IMG/VR virus record: IMGVR_UViG_3300042868_000207
Coordinates: 1 to 25,915 of that record
DNA from: a virus
Length of the DNA: 25,915 nt
Reading direction: 5' to 3' (one strand)
In this document: piece by piece, positions 1,827 to 25,386 of the stretch
Layout: the number at the start of each line of letters is the position of its first letter
Position numbering within the stretch: position 1 is the first letter of the stretch
Program-made: the position numbers and the translations under genes
Notes under the pieces: model-generated
The model's input: the letters and a program-made list of their open reading frames with translations, nothing else
Told to the model about the DNA's origin: nothing
Databases searched by the model: none

Positions 1827-1985
1827 TTACTCAGCCTGTGGTGGATTAAAGCGTACACCATCCCATGTGTAACCAATGTCACAAAATGGAATTTCCACCA
1901 AAGTACAACCTTCGGGTGGTGGGTCGGTTACTTCGGCAACAATAATGTTTACTACTACATTGTCTTTAATAACAGCACAATTCAT
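1827..1985 (-). CDS. Small protein preceding the left-edge fibre
   Basis: A 52-residue protein, 'MNCAVIKDNVVVNIIVAEVTDPPPEGC...IGYTWDGVRFNPPQAE'. The layout 'aVI-nNvVvNiIvAe ... C-IGyTwdG--F--P' is a common type of short phage protein next to tail fibres, sometimes annotated as fibre assembly or small tail protein. TAGGAAA, overlapping the stop of the previous gene, is its ribosome site. Its TAA is followed at once by the ATG of the large left-edge gene, which suggests a shared job such as chaperoning or capping that fibre. That is inferred. Confidence 0.72.
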   Translation of the reverse strand: MNCAVIKDNVVVNIIVAEVTDPPPEGCTLVEIPFCDIGYTWDGVRFNPPQAE

Positions 1986-1993
1986 ATATTTTC

Positions 1994-2392
1994 CTATGCT
2001 TGTTGAGCTACAGCGACTACATCCCAGAATGAATCATTAGAGTTATAGATACAACCAACATAGGTTGCCTTTGTAGCTACTGTTGTAGTTGGTAATGTAG
2101 TTCCAACAATTCTATAACCACCAGCAGAAGTAGTCCACGTCAATGCTCTGCCTGTTCCATCATCTTCAATACGAATAATTAACTTTTGACCATCTGTAGG
2201 TGTGCCTGTAGGAATAGCAATAGTAGCTGGTACTGCTAATGCAGTTACGTTGTACTGGTTGTTTCCTGTAGTCGGAGTAATCGTTGACGCAGAAGCTATG
2301 CTGTCAGAAGATGCAGCTACTGAACCAGTAATAGAAAGAACCCCAGTACTTGGGACTATCGTATCTGAAGGATGGTTTAAGTTAATTGCCAT
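1994..2392 (-). CDS. Small fibre-associated structural protein
   Basis: A 132-residue, Thr/Ala-rich beta protein. It carries 'INLNHPSDTIVPSTGVLSITG' followed by 'PTGTPTDGQKLIIRIEDDGTGRALTW' and ends 'SFWDVVAVAQQA'. The 'DGQKL-IRI-DDGT-RALTW' pattern recurs in phage fibre and tail-tip proteins, where it forms a small beta domain. ATG 2392 has a GAGGA site 8 nt upstream. It probably belongs to the fibre complex; the exact role is unknown. Confidence 0.7.
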   Translation of the reverse strand: MAINLNHPSDTIVPSTGVLSITGSVAASSDSIASASTITPTTGNNQYNVTALAVPATIAIPTGTPTDGQKLIIRIEDDGTGRALTWTTSAGGYRIVGTTLPTTTVATKATYVGCIYNSNDSFWDVVAVAQQA

Positions 2393-2461
2393 TTAGCAAT
2401 CCTCTGCACCTTCGTACTGCCCAAAAGTCTTAAGAACTTCATATAGCGCATTACAGTTCAT
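2393..2461 (-). pseudogene. Duplicated 3' end of the 88-residue gene / 22-codon micro-ORF
   Basis: Reads ATG to TAA as MNCNALYEVLKTFGQYEGAEDC. Residues 5-22 match the end of the 88-residue gene upstream of HNH at 14 of 18 positions, and 43 of 57 bases match, with many differences at third codon positions. A good AAAAGGAA site lies 6 nt before the ATG, so it may still be translated; it overlaps the HNH end by 11 nt and abuts the next gene (TAAATG), whose GAGGA ribosome site lies within these codons. It may be the original end of the interrupted gene, or the remnant of a second copy. Confidence 0.7.
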
Positions 2462-3101
2462 ATCTATTCCTTTTGCTTAAATTTTCGTGGGCAGTTAATA
2501 TTTGTAAATTCCAAGGCACATGAAGTCCCGATATGCCATTTGCCTTTAAAGGGACTATGTGGTCTACATGACGCTTAATACCAGTTTGTGCTTCTAAAGC
2601 AGTTGCTATCTCATAAAACTCGGCAATTTGAGCTTTTTGAATGGCGGTAAGCCAATCAGGAGTAGCGTTTGACATTGATGCTCTGCGCCTAGCTCTTTTA
2701 GCTCTTGCTGTTCCAGTATTGTTTTTAAAATATTCTTTACTTCTTTGTCTTTCTTTTTCTAAATAACTTGGGTCTAAACATAACAAATCATACCTTTGTT
2801 TTAATCTAGCCTTTTGCGCTTCTTTGTATTCTTCATCTGTATGCCATTTTTGTTTTTTGGCTTCTTGATGTTTTGCGTAATTTTCAGGGTTTCTAAACTG
2901 ATACCCCTGTAGCATTTTATTGCGTTTTTCTACAGCCTTTGGATATTTGTCCCAATATTTACGCATATAGAGCCGATGGCACTCAACACAACGACCAGTA
3001 TTGGTATTGCGTTCTACTACATGACCATTTTGACAAGGCTTATTAGTAAAGTACCTATCTTTACCTTCAGCTATTGCGGTTGCCCTAATTTTGCATTTCA
3101 T
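2451..3101 (-). CDS. HNH endonuclease, probable free-standing homing enzyme
   Basis: A 216-residue protein. An N-terminal zinc-finger-like set Cys23, His27, Cys38, Cys41 (PCQNGH...CVEC) precedes a long, very basic helical middle (about 45-145, many Lys/Arg/Gln). The C-terminal HNH motif is 'HVDHIVPLKANG' with H178, D180, H181, then 'PWNLQ' with N198, and 'HENLSKRNR'. Such genes are common mobile inserts in phages. It has no ribosome site of its own and is coupled to the preceding gene (TAA T ATG). It interrupts the row of fibre-associated genes and is flanked on both sides by versions of the same 3' gene end, as expected for a mobile insertion. Confidence 0.9.
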   Translation of the reverse strand: MKCKIRATAIAEGKDRYFTNKPCQNGHVVERNTNTGRCVECHRLYMRKYWDKYPKAVEKRNKMLQGYQFRNPENYAKHQEAKKQKWHTDEEYKEAQKARLKQRYDLLCLDPSYLEKERQRSKEYFKNNTGTARAKRARRRASMSNATPDWLTAIQKAQIAEFYEIATALEAQTGIKRHVDHIVPLKANGISGLHVPWNLQILTAHENLSKRNRYEL

Positions 3102-3102
3102 A

Positions 3103-3369
3103 TTAGCAATCTACAGCACCTTCATATTGAGAAAAGGTTTTAAGAATTTCATACATAGCTGGAATTATATCGCCTTTAAGCGATTCAATAGCGATGTAAT
3201 GAGCATCTTCACGAACTGTTGCCATGTTGCTATGGCGTGCATCTTCGTTGTAATAGATTGCAACTTGAACTTGAATTTGGTCTTTTGTACCAAAGAAGTT
3301 CGTAATGCGTGCGTAAGCGTCAGGTGCTGGTGCGCCAAATTGGGTTTCTACTGCGAGCTTAAGTGCCAA
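3103..3369 (-). CDS. Small conserved-looking fibre-region protein, TTG start
   Basis: An 88-residue protein when started at TTG 3369 (M-ALKLAVETQFGAPAP...). The frame extends upstream to an ATG at 3501, but that would lie inside the end of the fibre gene and encode an unlikely Ser/Asn/Tyr-rich stretch, while TTG 3369 has a near-perfect ribosome site. The sequence contains 'YARITNFFGTKDQIQVQVAIYYNEDARH', probably a small beta domain, and ends with 'MYEILKTFSQYEGAVDC'. I do not know its function. Its last 18 codons are duplicated, in diverged form, on the far side of the HNH gene. The HNH ATG follows its stop after one base. Confidence 0.75.
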   Translation of the reverse strand: MALKLAVETQFGAPAPDAYARITNFFGTKDQIQVQVAIYYNEDARHSNMATVREDAHYIAIESLKGDIIPAMYEILKTFSQYEGAVDC

Positions 3370-3374
3370 GATAA

Positions 3375-3382
3375 TTCTCCTT
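3375..3382 (-). promoter_or_regulatory. Strong Shine-Dalgarno AAGGAGAA fixing a TTG start
   Basis: AAGGAGAA overlaps the stop of the long fibre gene and lies 5 nt upstream of TTG 3369. No ATG is near. It is the best ribosome site in the window and decides the start of the 88-residue gene. Confidence 0.8.
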
Positions 3383-6300
3383 AAAAAGTTGTTTCGGTTG
3401 TGCGAATCTGTGCAACTGTTCTGATAGTCGTTGCTGCCTGTCCTGTAAAGGTAACTCTTATTCCACCATTGGTAGTATCGGCTGTTACTGCAATAGTCCA
3501 AGCTGCTGCACCAACATCACCGTGGGTAGATATTACTGTAACTCCAACAAGAGTAGTAGCCGCAGCATTAGCACCTCGTTTAATTACACCTTCGATAGTC
3601 CAGCCTTTAGTGTTACCACCACCAGTTACTCCTGAGATAACTTCACCTCTAAAGAAGTAAGCAGAGTTGTTAGGTAATATTATTTGGTTTGTTGTTCCTG
3701 CTGCTGAACTGTTTGAGCGTAATGCTGTTGCAGTAGCGTCTGTGGTTTGAACCGCAAGAACTAATAATCCAGTTTGCGATACACCAGTAGCATTTGTAAT
3801 TGGCTGGTTTGATGCGGCATTAACTTGATAACCAACAATGCTTCTTGTAGTACCATAACTTCCACCCAAAACAGAAGAATAAGAACCTGAAGCTGTATTT
3901 GTATCGCCATTTAGTACGCTTGCAAAAGATGCATTTACAGTACATCCACTACCATTTCCAATAAATCCTTGACTACTGCTTACATTTTGAAATTGACCAT
4001 TAAGTACGGTAGCATAAACGGAGGATGCGGTATTTGAATATCCAGCACCAATAAATGAGTTATTTCCACTTGCTGTAGAAGTTACAAATCCGTTGTTAAA
4101 ACCACCGCCACAAATTACAGAGCTTATACCTGATGCCACATTTCTTGCGCCACCACCAACAAAACTCCAATCCCCACTAGCCACATTCCTATTAGCCGCA
4201 GTACCAGCATCACCACCACCACCGATAAATGAATAACTACCTGTAGCTTGGTTGTTACCACCGCCTACTACTGTGCCAAATGGTGTTCTAAAGGTTAAAG
4301 TAATAGCGGCATTAGTAGCTGTTGCATTGGCTGTTAAAGTTAAAGATGTTCCCGATACAGCAGAAACATAGGTGTAATTATTTATTCCTGTGCCTTCTAC
4401 CCATTGACCAACCTTAATATTAGCGTTACTGCCTGATAATGTAACGGCAGTAGAACCGCTTGTAGTTGCGGCAGTTTGTGTAGTTACTGCGGCACTTGCT
4501 GTTCCCGAATTACCTTGACCACCGCCAATAACATTTAAGTTCCCTGCGGCAGTATTTTGATAGCCAGCACCAACATAACAGTTATTACCGCTTGCAGTAT
4601 TTGATTCACCGCCAAGAACTGCCGCCCTTATGCCTGAAGCAGTATTTCCATAACCGCCTAAAACAGCCCCATCTTGAGCGTTTGCTGTGTTAAATCTTCC
4701 CCCGACAATGATAGATGTTGATGCACTAGCTACTTGAGCCGCTGTACTTCTAACCGTTTGAAAATCAACAGCATTAGCACCCCTAGCATTACCACCTGCT
4801 GTAGAAGATGTAGTAGCTTGTGCTTGTAATGCGCCTGTTCCTGCTGGTTGTAAATACAATGCACCATTAGACTCTAGTCCAATAGTAGATACTCCACTAA
4901 AGGATAGGGTAGGAGTTCCGTAGATTGCTGTAGTTGTTGTGGGGATGTAGGTATTGGCGGTTGTAGAAAGCTCTACCTGTGAACCCCAAATATAAGTTTG
5001 GTTGTTTGCCCCTAAATATGTTTGAATACCGCCCGAACCAGCACTAACTGTACCATCCGTACTTGAAGCCAAAATAAATCTAGGCGCACTTGCAGTAGTT
5101 CCAACAACAAATGTAATTACGCATCGAAACCAACTATTTCCAGCAGAAGTTATGCTTGTTGAAATAATTGAATAACCAGTTCCGTTTGCTAGGCTTGAAG
5201 ATACAGCACCAGTATTAATATTAAATGATGCTACCGCAAATCTATCGCCAACCGCAATATCAGTAATTCCGACATTTATAAAGTTTAGGCTTTTCTTTTT
5301 CGCATACACAGAATATGTATAAGTGCCACCTGATATAACAGTAATATTCTGTGCTAAATAATGAAGCGCAGATGAAGTTCCATCATCATAAATATCAGCA
5401 GTATTTGTGCCGTCAGGTGCAGTTGTTTCTGTAGTATTTGCAGTAACAGTTAAGTTATTTTTTACCCAACTAGCATTTTCAAAGGTTTGGCTTTGCAATG
5501 ATAAATTCTGCCCAGTACCCCTTAACACTCCTGTCTGTCCTGTAATAGTAGTAGCGTTTACAGTAGATGGGGTAGTAGCACCGATAGTAGTGCCATTGAT
5601 TGTGCCACCAGTAATAGCTACGGCCGCTGGGTTATAAGGATTTGTAACAGCTATGCTTGTACTTGTAGAAGTTTGATTTACTGTTGTCCCTGTTCCTGCT
5701 GTAATTCTTTGAGTTACTGATACTCTAATTGTTATTACACCACCACCCGCACTACCGCCTTTTAATACTGCGGCAACAGTAACTATTGGACCACTAGAAG
5801 GATATGTTGTTGTAAAGCCACCAGTAACCGCAGAATTGTAATAAAGAATATCTCCATCTGCAAAAGCTAAAGTATTAACATTCCGTAATTCACCGTAAGC
5901 CTGAATTAAACCAAAGCCGTTATTAGCAATGTTTTCAGCGGCAACACCAATAATTGTTTGCCCGTTAGTAACTCCTGTTGCTGGTGCGGCTGTTGCTACG
6001 CCACTTGCACCAACAGAGCCAGTAAACATTACTACTTGTCCTTTGGTAATTGTTGCGCTCGCCTTTACATAAATATATGTATCTTCACCAATATGCTGTA
6101 TTACATTGCCACCTATCATTCCAAGGGCTAATGAGTTAAATGTTTCATCCCAACCTAGTTGGCCTACTGTAACTGGAGTTGTATAACCAGTATTAAAATT
6201 TACAAAATTAGGGTTTGTAATTGATGCAACGCCAGTAATTGCTCCTGTATCACTTACTGTAACTACGCTGTTTTGCAATAATTTGCCTGTAGTGGTATCA

Positions 6301-18911: not shown

Positions 18912-19952
18912 TTATACGCCAACTAAACGCACGCCTGCGAATACGTCACGAATTGTTGAAGTTACACGCTTTTCAGCAAACAAAGTAATAAATCCTGCTT
19001 GTGTCTGGTCAAAACGCTGAATACTCATCAATTCACGGTCAGCAATAGTCATGAACTTATCCCATTCGGCCAAATAAACTGGATATTTACCAACCCCAAC
19101 CTCATCCATGTATGGATTTGGAATGACTTTATGTCCAAAAATATAAAGTACAGCTCCACCATCGTCTAAGCCTTGCTCAGCAAATAATCTTGAGGCATTG
19201 CCTGTTGTTGCCGCTTTAAGCTGACGTAAATCGTGAATTGTATTTGGATGCATCATCCAACAAGTTGTAGGCTTATACAAATATTGTGCTGGCAAAGATT
19301 TTTGTAAATTGACTAAGTCATCATAAACAAGTGCTGTTCCTGATGCTTGTGCTACTTGTAATACAGTATGTCTGCCATTGGTAATAGCAGAGCCATTAGT
19401 GCCAAAAGCAGCCGCTGTTGTTGAGCCAGGGTATGAATTAAGACCACGCAGACCAGCTGTTGCTCCAGTTTGAACTGTAGTAGAGCCTGCTTGGTCATTG
19501 TTCAACATCATTGACAATGCTTCTTGTTGTGAAAATTCTAAAGCAATATCAGCAACAATAGATTCTTCAAGGTAATTAACATCTTCTAAAACGGCTGTAC
19601 GAATAGGCACAGTAGCGTTTATTGAGCGTACTGGCAATTGCCAAAATTGAACTGCCTCATTACCAAGGTTAGTTTTAATTGTGTAATCCCAAGGATTATC
19701 TGTGCCGCTTTGAAGTAAAGTGGCATTACCTGTATTAACAACAAAGGCTTCATCTGAGCCAATAGTTGTAATTACTCTTGCGCCACACATACGGAATGGA
19801 TTGGCATAGCGTAATGCTGCAAAAGCATCATCATAAATAACACGACCACCAACCCCTGAACCTGAAGCAGTAAGCGCAGATGCTTCTGTAAGGTTTATTG
19901 TGGCCTTGCCTTCAACAAGGGCTTTTTTTACTGCATCAAGGATTAGGCTCAT
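18912..19952 (-). CDS. Major capsid protein paralog 2, without coiled-coil prodomain
   Basis: A second HK97-fold capsid protein of 346 residues. It is clearly homologous to the upstream capsid protein: EASALTASGSGVGG against EASALTGSGAGVGG, ANPFR against LNPMR, VPIRTAVLEDV against FPIRTAALDDI, FSQQEALSMMLNNDQ against FSQAEALSMIQNNDQ, and RFDQTQAGFITLFAEKR against RYDQTLPGFITFYGEKR. Only about 22 residues precede the EASALT block, so the scaffolding-like domain is missing. I take ATG 19952, which has a TTTGGAA site before it, rather than the upstream TTG at 19964. It may form pentamers, be co-assembled with capsid protein 1, or be a minor shell component. These roles are inferred. Confidence 0.9.
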   Translation of the reverse strand: MSLILDAVKKALVEGKATINLTEASALTASGSGVGGRVIYDDAFAALRYANPFRMCGARVITTIGSDEAFVVNTGNATLLQSGTDNPWDYTIKTNLGNEAVQFWQLPVRSINATVPIRTAVLEDVNYLEESIVADIALEFSQQEALSMMLNNDQAGSTTVQTGATAGLRGLNSYPGSTTAAAFGTNGSAITNGRHTVLQVAQASGTALVYDDLVNLQKSLPAQYLYKPTTCWMMHPNTIHDLRQLKAATTGNASRLFAEQGLDDGGAVLYIFGHKVIPNPYMDEVGVGKYPVYLAEWDKFMTIADRELMSIQRFDQTQAGFITLFAEKRVTSTIRDVFAGVRLVGV

Positions 19953-19975
19953 GTTTAATTCCAAATATAGTTAAT

Positions 19976-20010: not shown

Positions 20011-21351
20011 TCAGGTTGCAGTACCTGTAGAACGATAACGCACGATTGCATTAATATCAACTACAGAAGTTGCCAAACGCTTTTCACCATAGAAAGTGAT
20101 AAAGCCAGGCAATGTCTGGTCATATCTACGCATAATCATGTTAAGACGGTCTACGATTGTAAATGCCTTATCAAAATCACCAAAATACATTGGGTACAAG
20201 CTAGTTGTGCCAGCTGCCCCAGTTGTAGTTTGACTTGGCAAATCAAGGTAAGAGTTTTCTACAACATCGAAACCTAACATTGTTCCAATAACGCCATCAA
20301 CACTTAAACCAGTTGTACGATTAAAGATTGGTGCGCCTTGCAAATCAGTTAGATTGCGAATTTGCGACATGAATGTGCTATTCACCATAAACTTACAAGA
20401 TGGAGTACGGTACTGTTGTGGCAAAGCAAACAAGAAATTTACAAGGTCTTTGTAAGTTACGTTTGAAGCTGCAACTGTATTCACGTTGGATGTAAGCTGG
20501 TCATAAGTAGCCATGCTATGCAAGCCTGATGTAGAACCAGTACCACTTGTTCCAAATGAAGCCGCAGATGTTTTGCCACCTGTGTAGGTAGCATTAGCAC
20601 CACCGTATTGATTCAGGCCACGCAGACCATTAGAGCCACCATAAGGCAAAGATGTTGCACCTTGGTCATTGTTTTGAATCATTGAAAGTGCTTCAGCTTG
20701 GCTAAATTCAGCCAACATATCGCTAACTACGTTACCTTCCAAACCATCAATGTCATCCAATGCCGCAGTACGGATTGGGAATTGGCAGTTTAAGTCTTGG
20801 AGGGTTAATTGCCAAATGTTGGTGTTTTCAGTAGTAGCTGCACCGTTGTTTTGGATTGCATAGCCCCAAGCTGCACCAGCGTTTCCAACTTTTGCACGGA
20901 ACTGATATGTTGAGCCATCAGTAGCAACTGAACGAGCAACGCCACGCATCGGGTTTAACAAACGCAATGGAACAAATACAGGGTCATACGCTGTACGACC
21001 ACCAACGCCTGCGCCTGAACCAGTCAATGCTGATGCTTCTTTTAGGTAAGCATCATATTGGCTTTCATCAGCCCACATTTTTAATTCTTTTTGAATCTTA
21101 GCTTCGCCACTTACAAATGCTTTTAACTGCTCTTTAACAGAACGATTAACTTCTTGGCTAATTGTTTTGTAAGTTTTGATAGATGGTGTTGCGCCTAATT
21201 GGCTAACTTTTGCTTCCAAAGAGGCAACTTTTTCTTCAAAAGTAGCAACTTTTTCGTCAACTAATTTAGATGTTTCAACTTTGCCTTCTTCAATCTTAGC
21301 AACAGTATTTGCTTCAATTTCGTCTAGCTTTGCAATAATTTGCTCTGACAT
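20011..21351 (-). CDS. Major capsid protein 1, HK97 fold with coiled-coil prodomain
   Basis: Main shell protein. Of 446 residues, about 1-104 form a charged heptad-rich segment (for example KLDEIEANTVAKIEEGK), matching in size and nature the HK97 delta (scaffolding) domain that the protease removes. After it come EASALTGSGAGVGG (105-118) and the folded capsid domain with NPMRGVAR, FPIRTAALDD, FSQAEALSMIQNNDQ, LRGLNQY and a C-terminal GFITFYGEKRLATSV block. Cleavage probably occurs close to residue 104; the exact bond cannot be seen. The Shine-Dalgarno AAAGGA is well placed before ATG 21351. A paralog lacking the prodomain follows, separated by a terminator-like hairpin. Confidence 0.95.
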   Translation of the reverse strand: MSEQIIAKLDEIEANTVAKIEEGKVETSKLVDEKVATFEEKVASLEAKVSQLGATPSIKTYKTISQEVNRSVKEQLKAFVSGEAKIQKELKMWADESQYDAYLKEASALTGSGAGVGGRTAYDPVFVPLRLLNPMRGVARSVATDGSTYQFRAKVGNAGAAWGYAIQNNGAATTENTNIWQLTLQDLNCQFPIRTAALDDIDGLEGNVVSDMLAEFSQAEALSMIQNNDQGATSLPYGGSNGLRGLNQYGGANATYTGGKTSAASFGTSGTGSTSGLHSMATYDQLTSNVNTVAASNVTYKDLVNFLFALPQQYRTPSCKFMVNSTFMSQIRNLTDLQGAPIFNRTTGLSVDGVIGTMLGFDVVENSYLDLPSQTTTGAAGTTSLYPMYFGDFDKAFTIVDRLNMIMRRYDQTLPGFITFYGEKRLATSVVDINAIVRYRSTGTAT

Positions 21352-23718: not shown

Positions 23719-25386
23719 CTAAAAACTTCGAAAACCAAAACTATTTGATACAAAAGCATTATCAAGAGAACAATGAGATGCAATAATCATAGCAATTATT
23801 CCATCTACTTTAGCTGACTTGTCTGCTTCATTCTTGCGTATTTTAATATTGCCATTAACATCTTCGTAAACTTCGCAATTTCCTAATTGCCATCCTAAAA
23901 ATGGGTTGCCATCGTGTTTAATCTGTTGATTCAGAATTAACTTCTCTACATACTTAGAGGGGTTAGATAATACTGCCATTCCTTGACCAACCTTTTTAAC
24001 TGGTATGCCAGCATCATATAGTCTAGCTACAAGGGATGCAGCATTATAGGCATCATAGCCAACTTCTTTAACACTATATTTTTCACATTCTTGTTTTATG
24101 TAATCTGATATTTCCCTATCATCCATCACATTACCTTCAGTTAACTTTAGGATGCCAGAATCAATAGCAACTCTAAATATGTCTTGATAATGCTTTGGAA
24201 TTAAAGCATACCCAGCTTCAGGCAAAAAGAACTTCCAATGGGCATGGTAATCTAGCTCCCCATATCGCTTTAGGGTACATACTGCATTTAAGTCTCTAGT
24301 TGCTGCCAAGTCAAAGCCAATAAAAACTGCTTCTGGCTCTTTGTTTGTAATCGATTGGATACACTCTGGCTTATCCCAACTTGCCCTATCAATCCATGCA
24401 CTATTGGCACTAACAAATATGTTAAGGGTCTTACAAAGGAATTCATTAAGCACTGCTGGCTTTGCTTTAGCTTCTTCTGCTCTTTGTTGGATAGCTTCTT
24501 CAAAAATGCTAATCCCATGCATAGGATTGGCTTTTGCCCAAGTTTTAGGGTCTCTCCAATCATCTTGAGGGTCAAGAGAATAAAGCAATCCAAACCACTT
24601 TGGATTATCTGTAGCCTCTCCATTTAGCATGGATTCTAGCATGGACATATCTTCATAAAACTTAGTGTCCTTGCTAAAACTAGCAGTTGTGATATAGATA
24701 CGTAATGGATTTTGTCTAGCAACCATGCCTGAGTGCAAAACCTCAATACTATTTCTATCAATAATGGCAGATGCTTCATCCACAATTACACAAGATGGTG
24801 CTTTACCATCGCCTGTTTTTTTGGTGTCCCTAGACAATGCTTTGAATATTGTTTGAGAATCGCCAAACTTTCCAATCTGATATTTGCTAACAGAAAACAA
24901 ACTAGCTATGTCTTTTGGCCCAGTTTCAATAAATCCTTTTGCAGCATCAAACACAATGGATGCTTGTTCTCTATTGGTTGCTAGGGTAAATACTTCTGCA
25001 CCAGCTTCGCCACAAGCTAGTTCATAAAGTGCAATTATGGCAGTAAGGGTAGATTTACCAGCTTTCCTTGGGATATACAAAATGACATCTGTAACCATCC
25101 TTTTGTTGTGATTTTTTTTTGCTCTAAACCCATAAATGGCACAGATAAAGAAAATCTGGAATGGTTCTAAAACTACATTTTGCCCTGCCTGGTGTCCTTT
25201 AGTATGCTTCAATAAGGATGCAAAGCCTAAAACATGGTTAGGGTAATCCGCATCAAATTCCCATTCCCATTCTTTGTTTTCAAGGAAATTTAAAAAACGC
25301 TGGCAAGCAAGCCTAACATTTCTACAAACCTCTATTTCCCCTTTGGCTACCTGATTGGCATACTGGATGCCATCTTGATAGTTCAT
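23719..25386 (-). CDS. terL: Terminase large subunit
   Basis: ATPase and nuclease of the packaging motor; it pumps genome DNA through the portal and cuts it. The protein has 555 residues, normal for HK97/P27-type large terminases. A Walker A-like motif (PRKAGKST, residues 106-113) and a Walker B motif (CVIVDE, 199-204) are visible, followed by an ITTAS coupling motif near 232-236. The C-terminal nuclease part shows GFDLAATRD (357-365), with acidic residues D359 and D365 as expected for the RNase H-like fold. The ATG at 25386 follows a clear AAGGA Shine-Dalgarno that overlaps the end of the small subunit, with one base between stop and start. The start context, length and motifs agree, so the call is strong. 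Confidence 0.97.
   Translation of the reverse strand: MNYQDGIQYANQVAKGEIEVCRNVRLACQRFLNFLENKEWEWEFDADYPNHVLGFASLLKHTKGHQAGQNVVLEPFQIFFICAIYGFRAKKNHNKRMVTDVILYIPRKAGKSTLTAIIALYELACGEAGAEVFTLATNREQASIVFDAAKGFIETGPKDIASLFSVSKYQIGKFGDSQTIFKALSRDTKKTGDGKAPSCVIVDEASAIIDRNSIEVLHSGMVARQNPLRIYITTASFSKDTKFYEDMSMLESMLNGEATDNPKWFGLLYSLDPQDDWRDPKTWAKANPMHGISIFEEAIQQRAEEAKAKPAVLNEFLCKTLNIFVSANSAWIDRASWDKPECIQSITNKEPEAVFIGFDLAATRDLNAVCTLKRYGELDYHAHWKFFLPEAGYALIPKHYQDIFRVAIDSGILKLTEGNVMDDREISDYIKQECEKYSVKEVGYDAYNAASLVARLYDAGIPVKKVGQGMAVLSNPSKYVEKLILNQQIKHDGNPFLGWQLGNCEVYEDVNGNIKIRKNEADKSAKVDGIIAMIIASHCSLDNAFVSNSFGFRSF

Follow-up and report, generated by a model that had tools for sequence, protein, structure and literature searches.

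A probable mobile HNH homing endonuclease gene of phages that carries a replacement 3' end for its host gene

Results

The window (the whole stretch of DNA that was analysed, 25,915 nucleotides of the viral record IMGVR_UViG_3300042868_000207) contains an HNH gene flanked by two diverged copies of the same gene end. Comparison of this locus with its homologues makes it very likely that the HNH gene is a mobile homing endonuclease gene which travels with a replacement 3' end of its host gene, inserts at a fixed site and displaces the resident end. The mobile unit would comprise a host-gene 3' end some 27 codons long, the stop codon and the HNH gene, and its insertion site would lie roughly 82-96 nt from the end of an 88-residue tail-region gene.

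The terminase of the window (23719..25386) is 71.8% identical to that of Methylophilaceae phage P19250A, which suggests that the virus is a phage of freshwater methylotrophs. Two adjacent major head protein genes (18912..19964 and 20011..21351, minus strand), both assigned to phrog_10 and 38% identical, are by their sequences a tandem capsid-gene pair.

Organization of the locus

The locus occupies positions 2393-3369, as given by the first-pass annotation, and all its features are on the minus strand. The host gene (3369..3103) codes for 88 residues, ends with ...AMYEILKTFSQYEGAVDC* and starts with TTG (3367-3369), where most of the relatives shown have ATG and locus L200 has GTG. Its body (3185..3369) is phrog_18037-like and is assigned to the resident phage by this PHROG match and by its likeness to locus L003; identity to L003 collapses in the remaining part (3103..3184, stop codon included), which is the incoming 3' end. 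The HNH gene (2451..3101, 216 residues; identified by PHROG matches, motif columns and an AlphaFold model) starts one base past the stop of the host gene. The junction reads TAA-T-ATG and the HNH gene is probably translationally coupled to the host gene. Behind it lies a remnant ORF, MNCNALYEVLKTFGQYEGAEDC* (2393..2461), composed of an ATG that overlaps the HNH stop and of the displaced resident 3' end; this in-frame ATG at 2461 precedes the native part, which reads ALYEVLKTFGQYEGAEDC* (2449..2393). The resident downstream gene (1994..2392, 132 residues) follows directly behind the remnant stop. Since the host gene stop precedes the HNH ATG and no Rfam match was obtained in window positions 1900..4000 at E<=1, the locus does not belong to the group I introns or inteins, and an intron reading was dropped.

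A recount of the two ends flanking the HNH gene gave exactly the values first reported, 43 of 57 bases and 14 of 18 residues, with the changes mainly at third positions (3, 2 and 9 differences at the first, second and third positions of the codons). The best other ungapped 57-mer match in the whole window, on both strands, reaches only 30/57, which excludes chance as the source of the likeness, and both ends were recovered in the record by tblastn with the 88-residue protein. When the ends were compared at 83 loci with HNH hits, those in which this HNH subfamily occurs together with a remnant scored 81-95 and all others 37 or less; among these 83 loci, no flanking end duplication was found at the closest HNH homologues outside the subfamily, which lie in other contexts.

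Occupied and empty sites in the 88-residue gene family

Two scans of phage contigs for the 88-residue family gave 311 and 296 candidate hits. The comparison was carried out on 162 loci (numbered with the prefix L), 131 of them distinct and 118 of these with enough downstream sequence. A second end was present in only four of the 118 (the window, L022, L062 and L216), and in all four the HNH gene lies between both ends. Loci with HNH gene and stub had second-end scores of 81-95 and the others 42 or less, the scores of 42 coming from a distant paralogue. HNH-less relatives with both copies, which had been named beforehand as the observation that would separate the duplication from the insertion, did not occur among the loci compared.

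The HNH subfamily was found in six distinct loci, the four above, L200 and L168/L169, and in all six the gene begins 1 nt past the host-gene stop; in L200 and L168/L169 it stands at the usual place and the stub is missing. Its presence is thus patchy, with six carriers for about 131 distinct homologous loci and about 125 empty sites. As expected of a homing gene, the site is fixed, occupied in some alleles and empty in syntenic relatives. The empty-site relatives of the window are L273 and L001. In L273, which is 73-74% identical to the window, an HNH-less and single-ended host gene stands directly before a homologue of the window's next gene (74% identical to the 132-residue gene over the full length); L003 has another downstream context. 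The exact unoccupied end of the window (remnant pattern followed by TAAATGG) was found in no contig of the viral collection. For L022, the empty-site relative is L075 (next gene 92% identical); the downstream sequence of L062 is common to the HNH-less L039-L041, and the next gene of L216 starts as in the HNH-less L209 and L227. The next gene of L200 recurs in HNH-less L236 at a distance of 8 nt vs 641 in L200, and that of L168 in HNH-less L220 and L230 at a distance of -4 vs 641 in L168.

In INPHARED, the 88-residue gene had no match and the window HNH protein reached only 31-34% identity in the best records among the matches listed; no relatives of either protein were found in the genome contig collection. 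In L237, L234, L212, L225, L239 and L246, further unrelated inserts, about 100-980 nt in length, separate the 88/89-residue gene from the gene that usually follows it, and this interval seems to be a hot spot in general.

The upstream end is foreign and the downstream stub is resident

The body, the upstream end and the stub of each carrier were compared with 125 HNH-less homologues. The window body is nearest to L003 (92%), then to L001, and the window remnant is nearest to these same two loci (L001, 86%; L003, 82%), which rank second and first by body identity. The upstream end of the window has other neighbours, L052 (95%), L022 (93%) and L062 (91%), and the body of L052 ranks only 28th for the window body. 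In L062, the same locus, L078, is nearest for both body and stub. The stub of L216 is 96-98% identical to L209, L210 and L229 (93-96% when L209 and L227 are compared), and that of L022 has its nearest native end in L075, with a likeness of only 81%. The incoming ends of the window, L022 and L062 are 91-98% alike and their bodies 71-79%. When each end was compared with the ends of the ten nearest bodies, the mean similarity was 0.63-0.70 in all six carriers vs 0.84 +/- 0.08 in HNH-less genes, and the stubs gave 0.71-0.80. The upstream end therefore fits the lineage of its body poorly whereas the stub fits it, meaning that the upstream end came in and the stub is resident.

These data bear out the proposal of the first-pass annotation that the HNH gene arrived with the 3' end of a diverged phage, in agreement with the breakpoints described below and with stubs at four loci. 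They also uphold its second part, the resident end left behind, because the stubs resemble HNH-less relatives of the resident phage and the empty sites are single-ended; the outcome is, as had been proposed, an intact hybrid host gene plus a relic in which the resident 3' end persists. AU tests on ends and bodies gave p = 0.10-0.48, the ends (60 nt) being too short for formal rejection, and on the body alone a single clade of the window, L022 and L062 was not rejected in an underpowered test (p = 0.48).

Two HNH-less loci have unusual ends. L052 (4001-4270) combines the incoming-type end with a different body, and a GKAF variant immediately precedes that end; ends of this type therefore also travel, or are maintained, in the absence of the HNH gene. 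The end of L078 (2319-2585) is chimera-like, its left part matching the incoming end of L062 (21/24) and its right part the L062 stub (38/42), and it may have arisen when the two end copies recombined and the HNH gene was lost.

The stub might also be more than a relic and either function as a mini-gene or provide homology on the right-hand side for further homing. In all four loci it shares its reading frame with an ATG that overlaps the HNH stop, for which the chance is 1/27 to 1/81, and L022 and L062 have their first stub codons in common; this common junction, however, reduces the number of independent events in the count. Moreover, two carriers have no stub, and the stub sequences have drifted (L062, DLLPAIYGVLKTFEQYKGAEDC). 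We regard this addition to the preferred explanation as unlikely.

Breakpoints and putative cut site

The positions of the breakpoints were counted by hand on printed alignments and are given in nt before the gene end. Between the window and L003, the ~86 bases immediately upstream of position -82 contain a single mismatch, and divergence is then instantaneous. The other left breakpoints are equally sharp: -82 for L022/L075, -87 for L216/L230, -91 for L200/L230 and -96 for L169/L212. The five mappable carriers are thus spread over about 15 nt (82-96 nt before the gene end). The native part of the stubs begins at about -81 in L216, -69 in L022 and L062 and -57 in the window. Left breakpoints and stub starts bracket the conserved AHYI..E(D/S)L.GD codons, and the cut of the HNH protein is therefore predicted there.

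At the breakpoint, an E-S codon pair replaces E-D in 5/6 carriers (L216 being the sole exception) vs 10/125 HNH-less genes (Fisher p=6e-5, post hoc). No single base splits all carriers from all HNH-less ends (6 vs 125); the nearest separator, a T in the penultimate codon (6/6 carriers vs 12/125), may reflect only the ancestry of the tail.

Ordinary long-range co-conversion, in which general homologous recombination would carry the HNH gene between phages, terminate by chance within the host gene and leave the stub as a crossover accident, is in accordance with the dragging along of flanking sequence that is usual in phage homing gene mobility (PMC2988022). It would also account for the tails of L216 and L200, which are 79% alike vs 89% for their bodies and so do not form one frozen cassette. 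Nevertheless, the left breakpoints nearly coincide in five carriers, which points to a discrete insertion and not to a random tract, and stubs recur at four loci with different downstream genes. Co-conversion of this kind is consequently judged quite unlikely, and the incoming end looks like a part of near fixed size of the mobile unit.

The HNH protein

The 216-residue protein of the window has a Cys/His-rich N-terminus with a zinc-like motif (C23, H27, C38, C41), a long helical middle part and a C-terminal HNH motif, HVDHIVPL...HVPWNLQ...N..K. Residues D180, H181, H194, N198 and N207 are invariant in 25/25 relatives and the other motif columns are nearly so. The best PHROG matches are phrog_1035 (endonuclease VII, 5.9e-21) and phrog_26577 (1e-19). 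From this conserved catalytic motif the protein is classified as an HNH endonuclease, with weak support from the fold: the AlphaFold model has a mean pLDDT of 86, and a PDB fold search gave nothing significant (colicin E7 nuclease, E=1.7, prob 0.28). A PDB sequence search yielded only the Cas9 HNH domain (E=0.08), and Pfam and NCBIfam contained no match for the protein. A fold search with the 88-residue protein likewise gave nothing significant.

Membership of the Endo VII/DHHRN group was considered and rejected, as the protein lacks a DHDH core with flanking CX2-4C and CX2C. Its core is V-D-H-I-V-P-L, and the conserved cysteines C23, C38 and C41 are located far N-terminal of it.

The endonuclease VII label of the best PHROG match, together with the packaging role of some phage HNH proteins (a title in the references of PMC12724721), could designate the protein as a packaging nuclease or resolvase instead of a homing endonuclease. 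Patchy presence, fixed site, transfer across lineages and a premature stop in L022 fit a selfish gene instead and make this assignment very improbable. The L022 HNH gene is interrupted by a TAA at codon 170 (L022:1630-1632) and is otherwise about 96% identical to that of L062; such an in-frame stop is expected of a decaying selfish gene.

The mobility of the gene is illustrated by these two loci. From about -85, across the HNH gene and into the stub, L022 and L062 hardly differ, whereas beyond the stub they are unrelated; their identity is 98% for the end, 96% for the HNH protein and 73% for the body. As in homing genes, the transfer was independent of the phylogeny of the host gene.

The remaining suggestion of the first-pass annotation, a tandem duplication of the 88-residue gene with the HNH gene replacing the front of the second copy, is next to negligible: although some relatives have a distant paralogue (MALIKPVPTDFG..., 30% over 50 residues, E=5e-5) immediately behind the gene, the end of this paralogue differs, stubs track the body lineage while upstream ends do not, and no HNH-less relative among the 118 loci has a second copy of the gene end. 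This paralogue is the next gene at L200:3912-4187 and in many relatives.

Proposed mechanism

The following pathway would account for the observed loci. When a diverged phage infects the same cell, the HNH protein would cut the unoccupied copy of the gene in that phage close to ...AHYI..EDL.GD.... The left broken end would then pair with the homologous gene body of the donor, and the donor 3' end and HNH gene would be copied from it, whereas the right broken end, the recipient's own 3' end, would be rejoined behind the HNH stop. Such a reaction would lead to the product that is found: an intact hybrid host gene made of its own body and the donor end, the HNH gene 1 nt further on, and the resident 3' end kept as a stub of 22-29 residues whose frame is that of the ATG at the HNH stop. 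Two of the six carriers have no stub; there it has been lost or never arose. Since the unit brings its own diverged end, the gene of the carrier would no longer contain the resident site, and the replaced end may thereby protect the carrier from self-cutting.

Discussion

The closest known parallel is found in the mORFs of fungal mitochondria, described for atp6, atp9, cox2 and nad3 of Glomus sp., atp6 of Allomyces macrogynus, atp9 of Rhizopus and cox2 of Mortierella, in which a mobile endonuclease ORF is accompanied by a foreign C-terminus fused in frame and the native C-terminus is displaced downstream (PMC3630166). In both systems, an endonuclease ORF lies near the 3' end of a gene, a foreign replacement end yields an intact hybrid gene, and the native end, related to that of close relatives, is found downstream with largely synonymous differences. 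A foreign C-terminus in frame and a native end behind the HNH gene are present in the window, L022, L062 and L216. The systems differ in that the mORFs are mitochondrial, with a LAGLIDADG enzyme in the class named for Glomus atp6, whereas the window is a caudovirus contig with an HNH enzyme; furthermore, the phage unit carries about 27 codons only, and one gene has been struck repeatedly in diverged phages. By these features the phage unit works like a mORF, yet it is not filed as a member because mORFs are located in fungal mtDNA.

Free-standing phage homing endonuclease genes, such as mobE, segF and segG of T4 and the HNH genes of lactococcal Skunavirus, are, in the available parts of PMC2988022 and PMC12724721, also intergenic beside their presumed target, patchy and associated with co-conversion of the flanks, and they may start near the upstream stop (mobE, UAAUGA). 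Co-conversion of flanks, marker exclusion and split genes are described in these parts, and a displaced stub with an intact hybrid gene is not. The F-CphI or Endo VII-type (DHHRN) phage homing endonucleases, with a DHDH core between CX2-4C and CX2C (PMC6083498), share with the window protein the C-terminal catalytic motif, the phage homing context and the endonuclease VII PHROG match. They differ from it by the DHDH core and flanking CXXC pairs, in place of which the window protein has the DHIVPL/HVPWNLQ motif, and the collaborative homing of F-CphI relies on an intron (PMC6083498) that the window locus does not have. No phage example of an intact hybrid gene with a displaced end was found in the open-access literature, an absence which at this scope is weak evidence.

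That phages harbour a whole class of such discrete units, each homing gene being invariably accompanied by a recoded end of its target and the displaced stub, still in frame, serving as right homology arm in the next round, is a tentative extension that we consider somewhat doubtful.

If the proposed reading is true, insertion into a coding sequence keeps the gene intact without intron or intein. To introns and inteins this would add a third harmless way of occupying a coding gene, and one common to mitochondria and phages. The scar left behind, a stub with a sharp breakpoint, orients each transfer and makes the cut site predictable from the sequence. Such a unit would also explain the abrupt mosaicism at the 3' ends of phage genes that gene trees misread.
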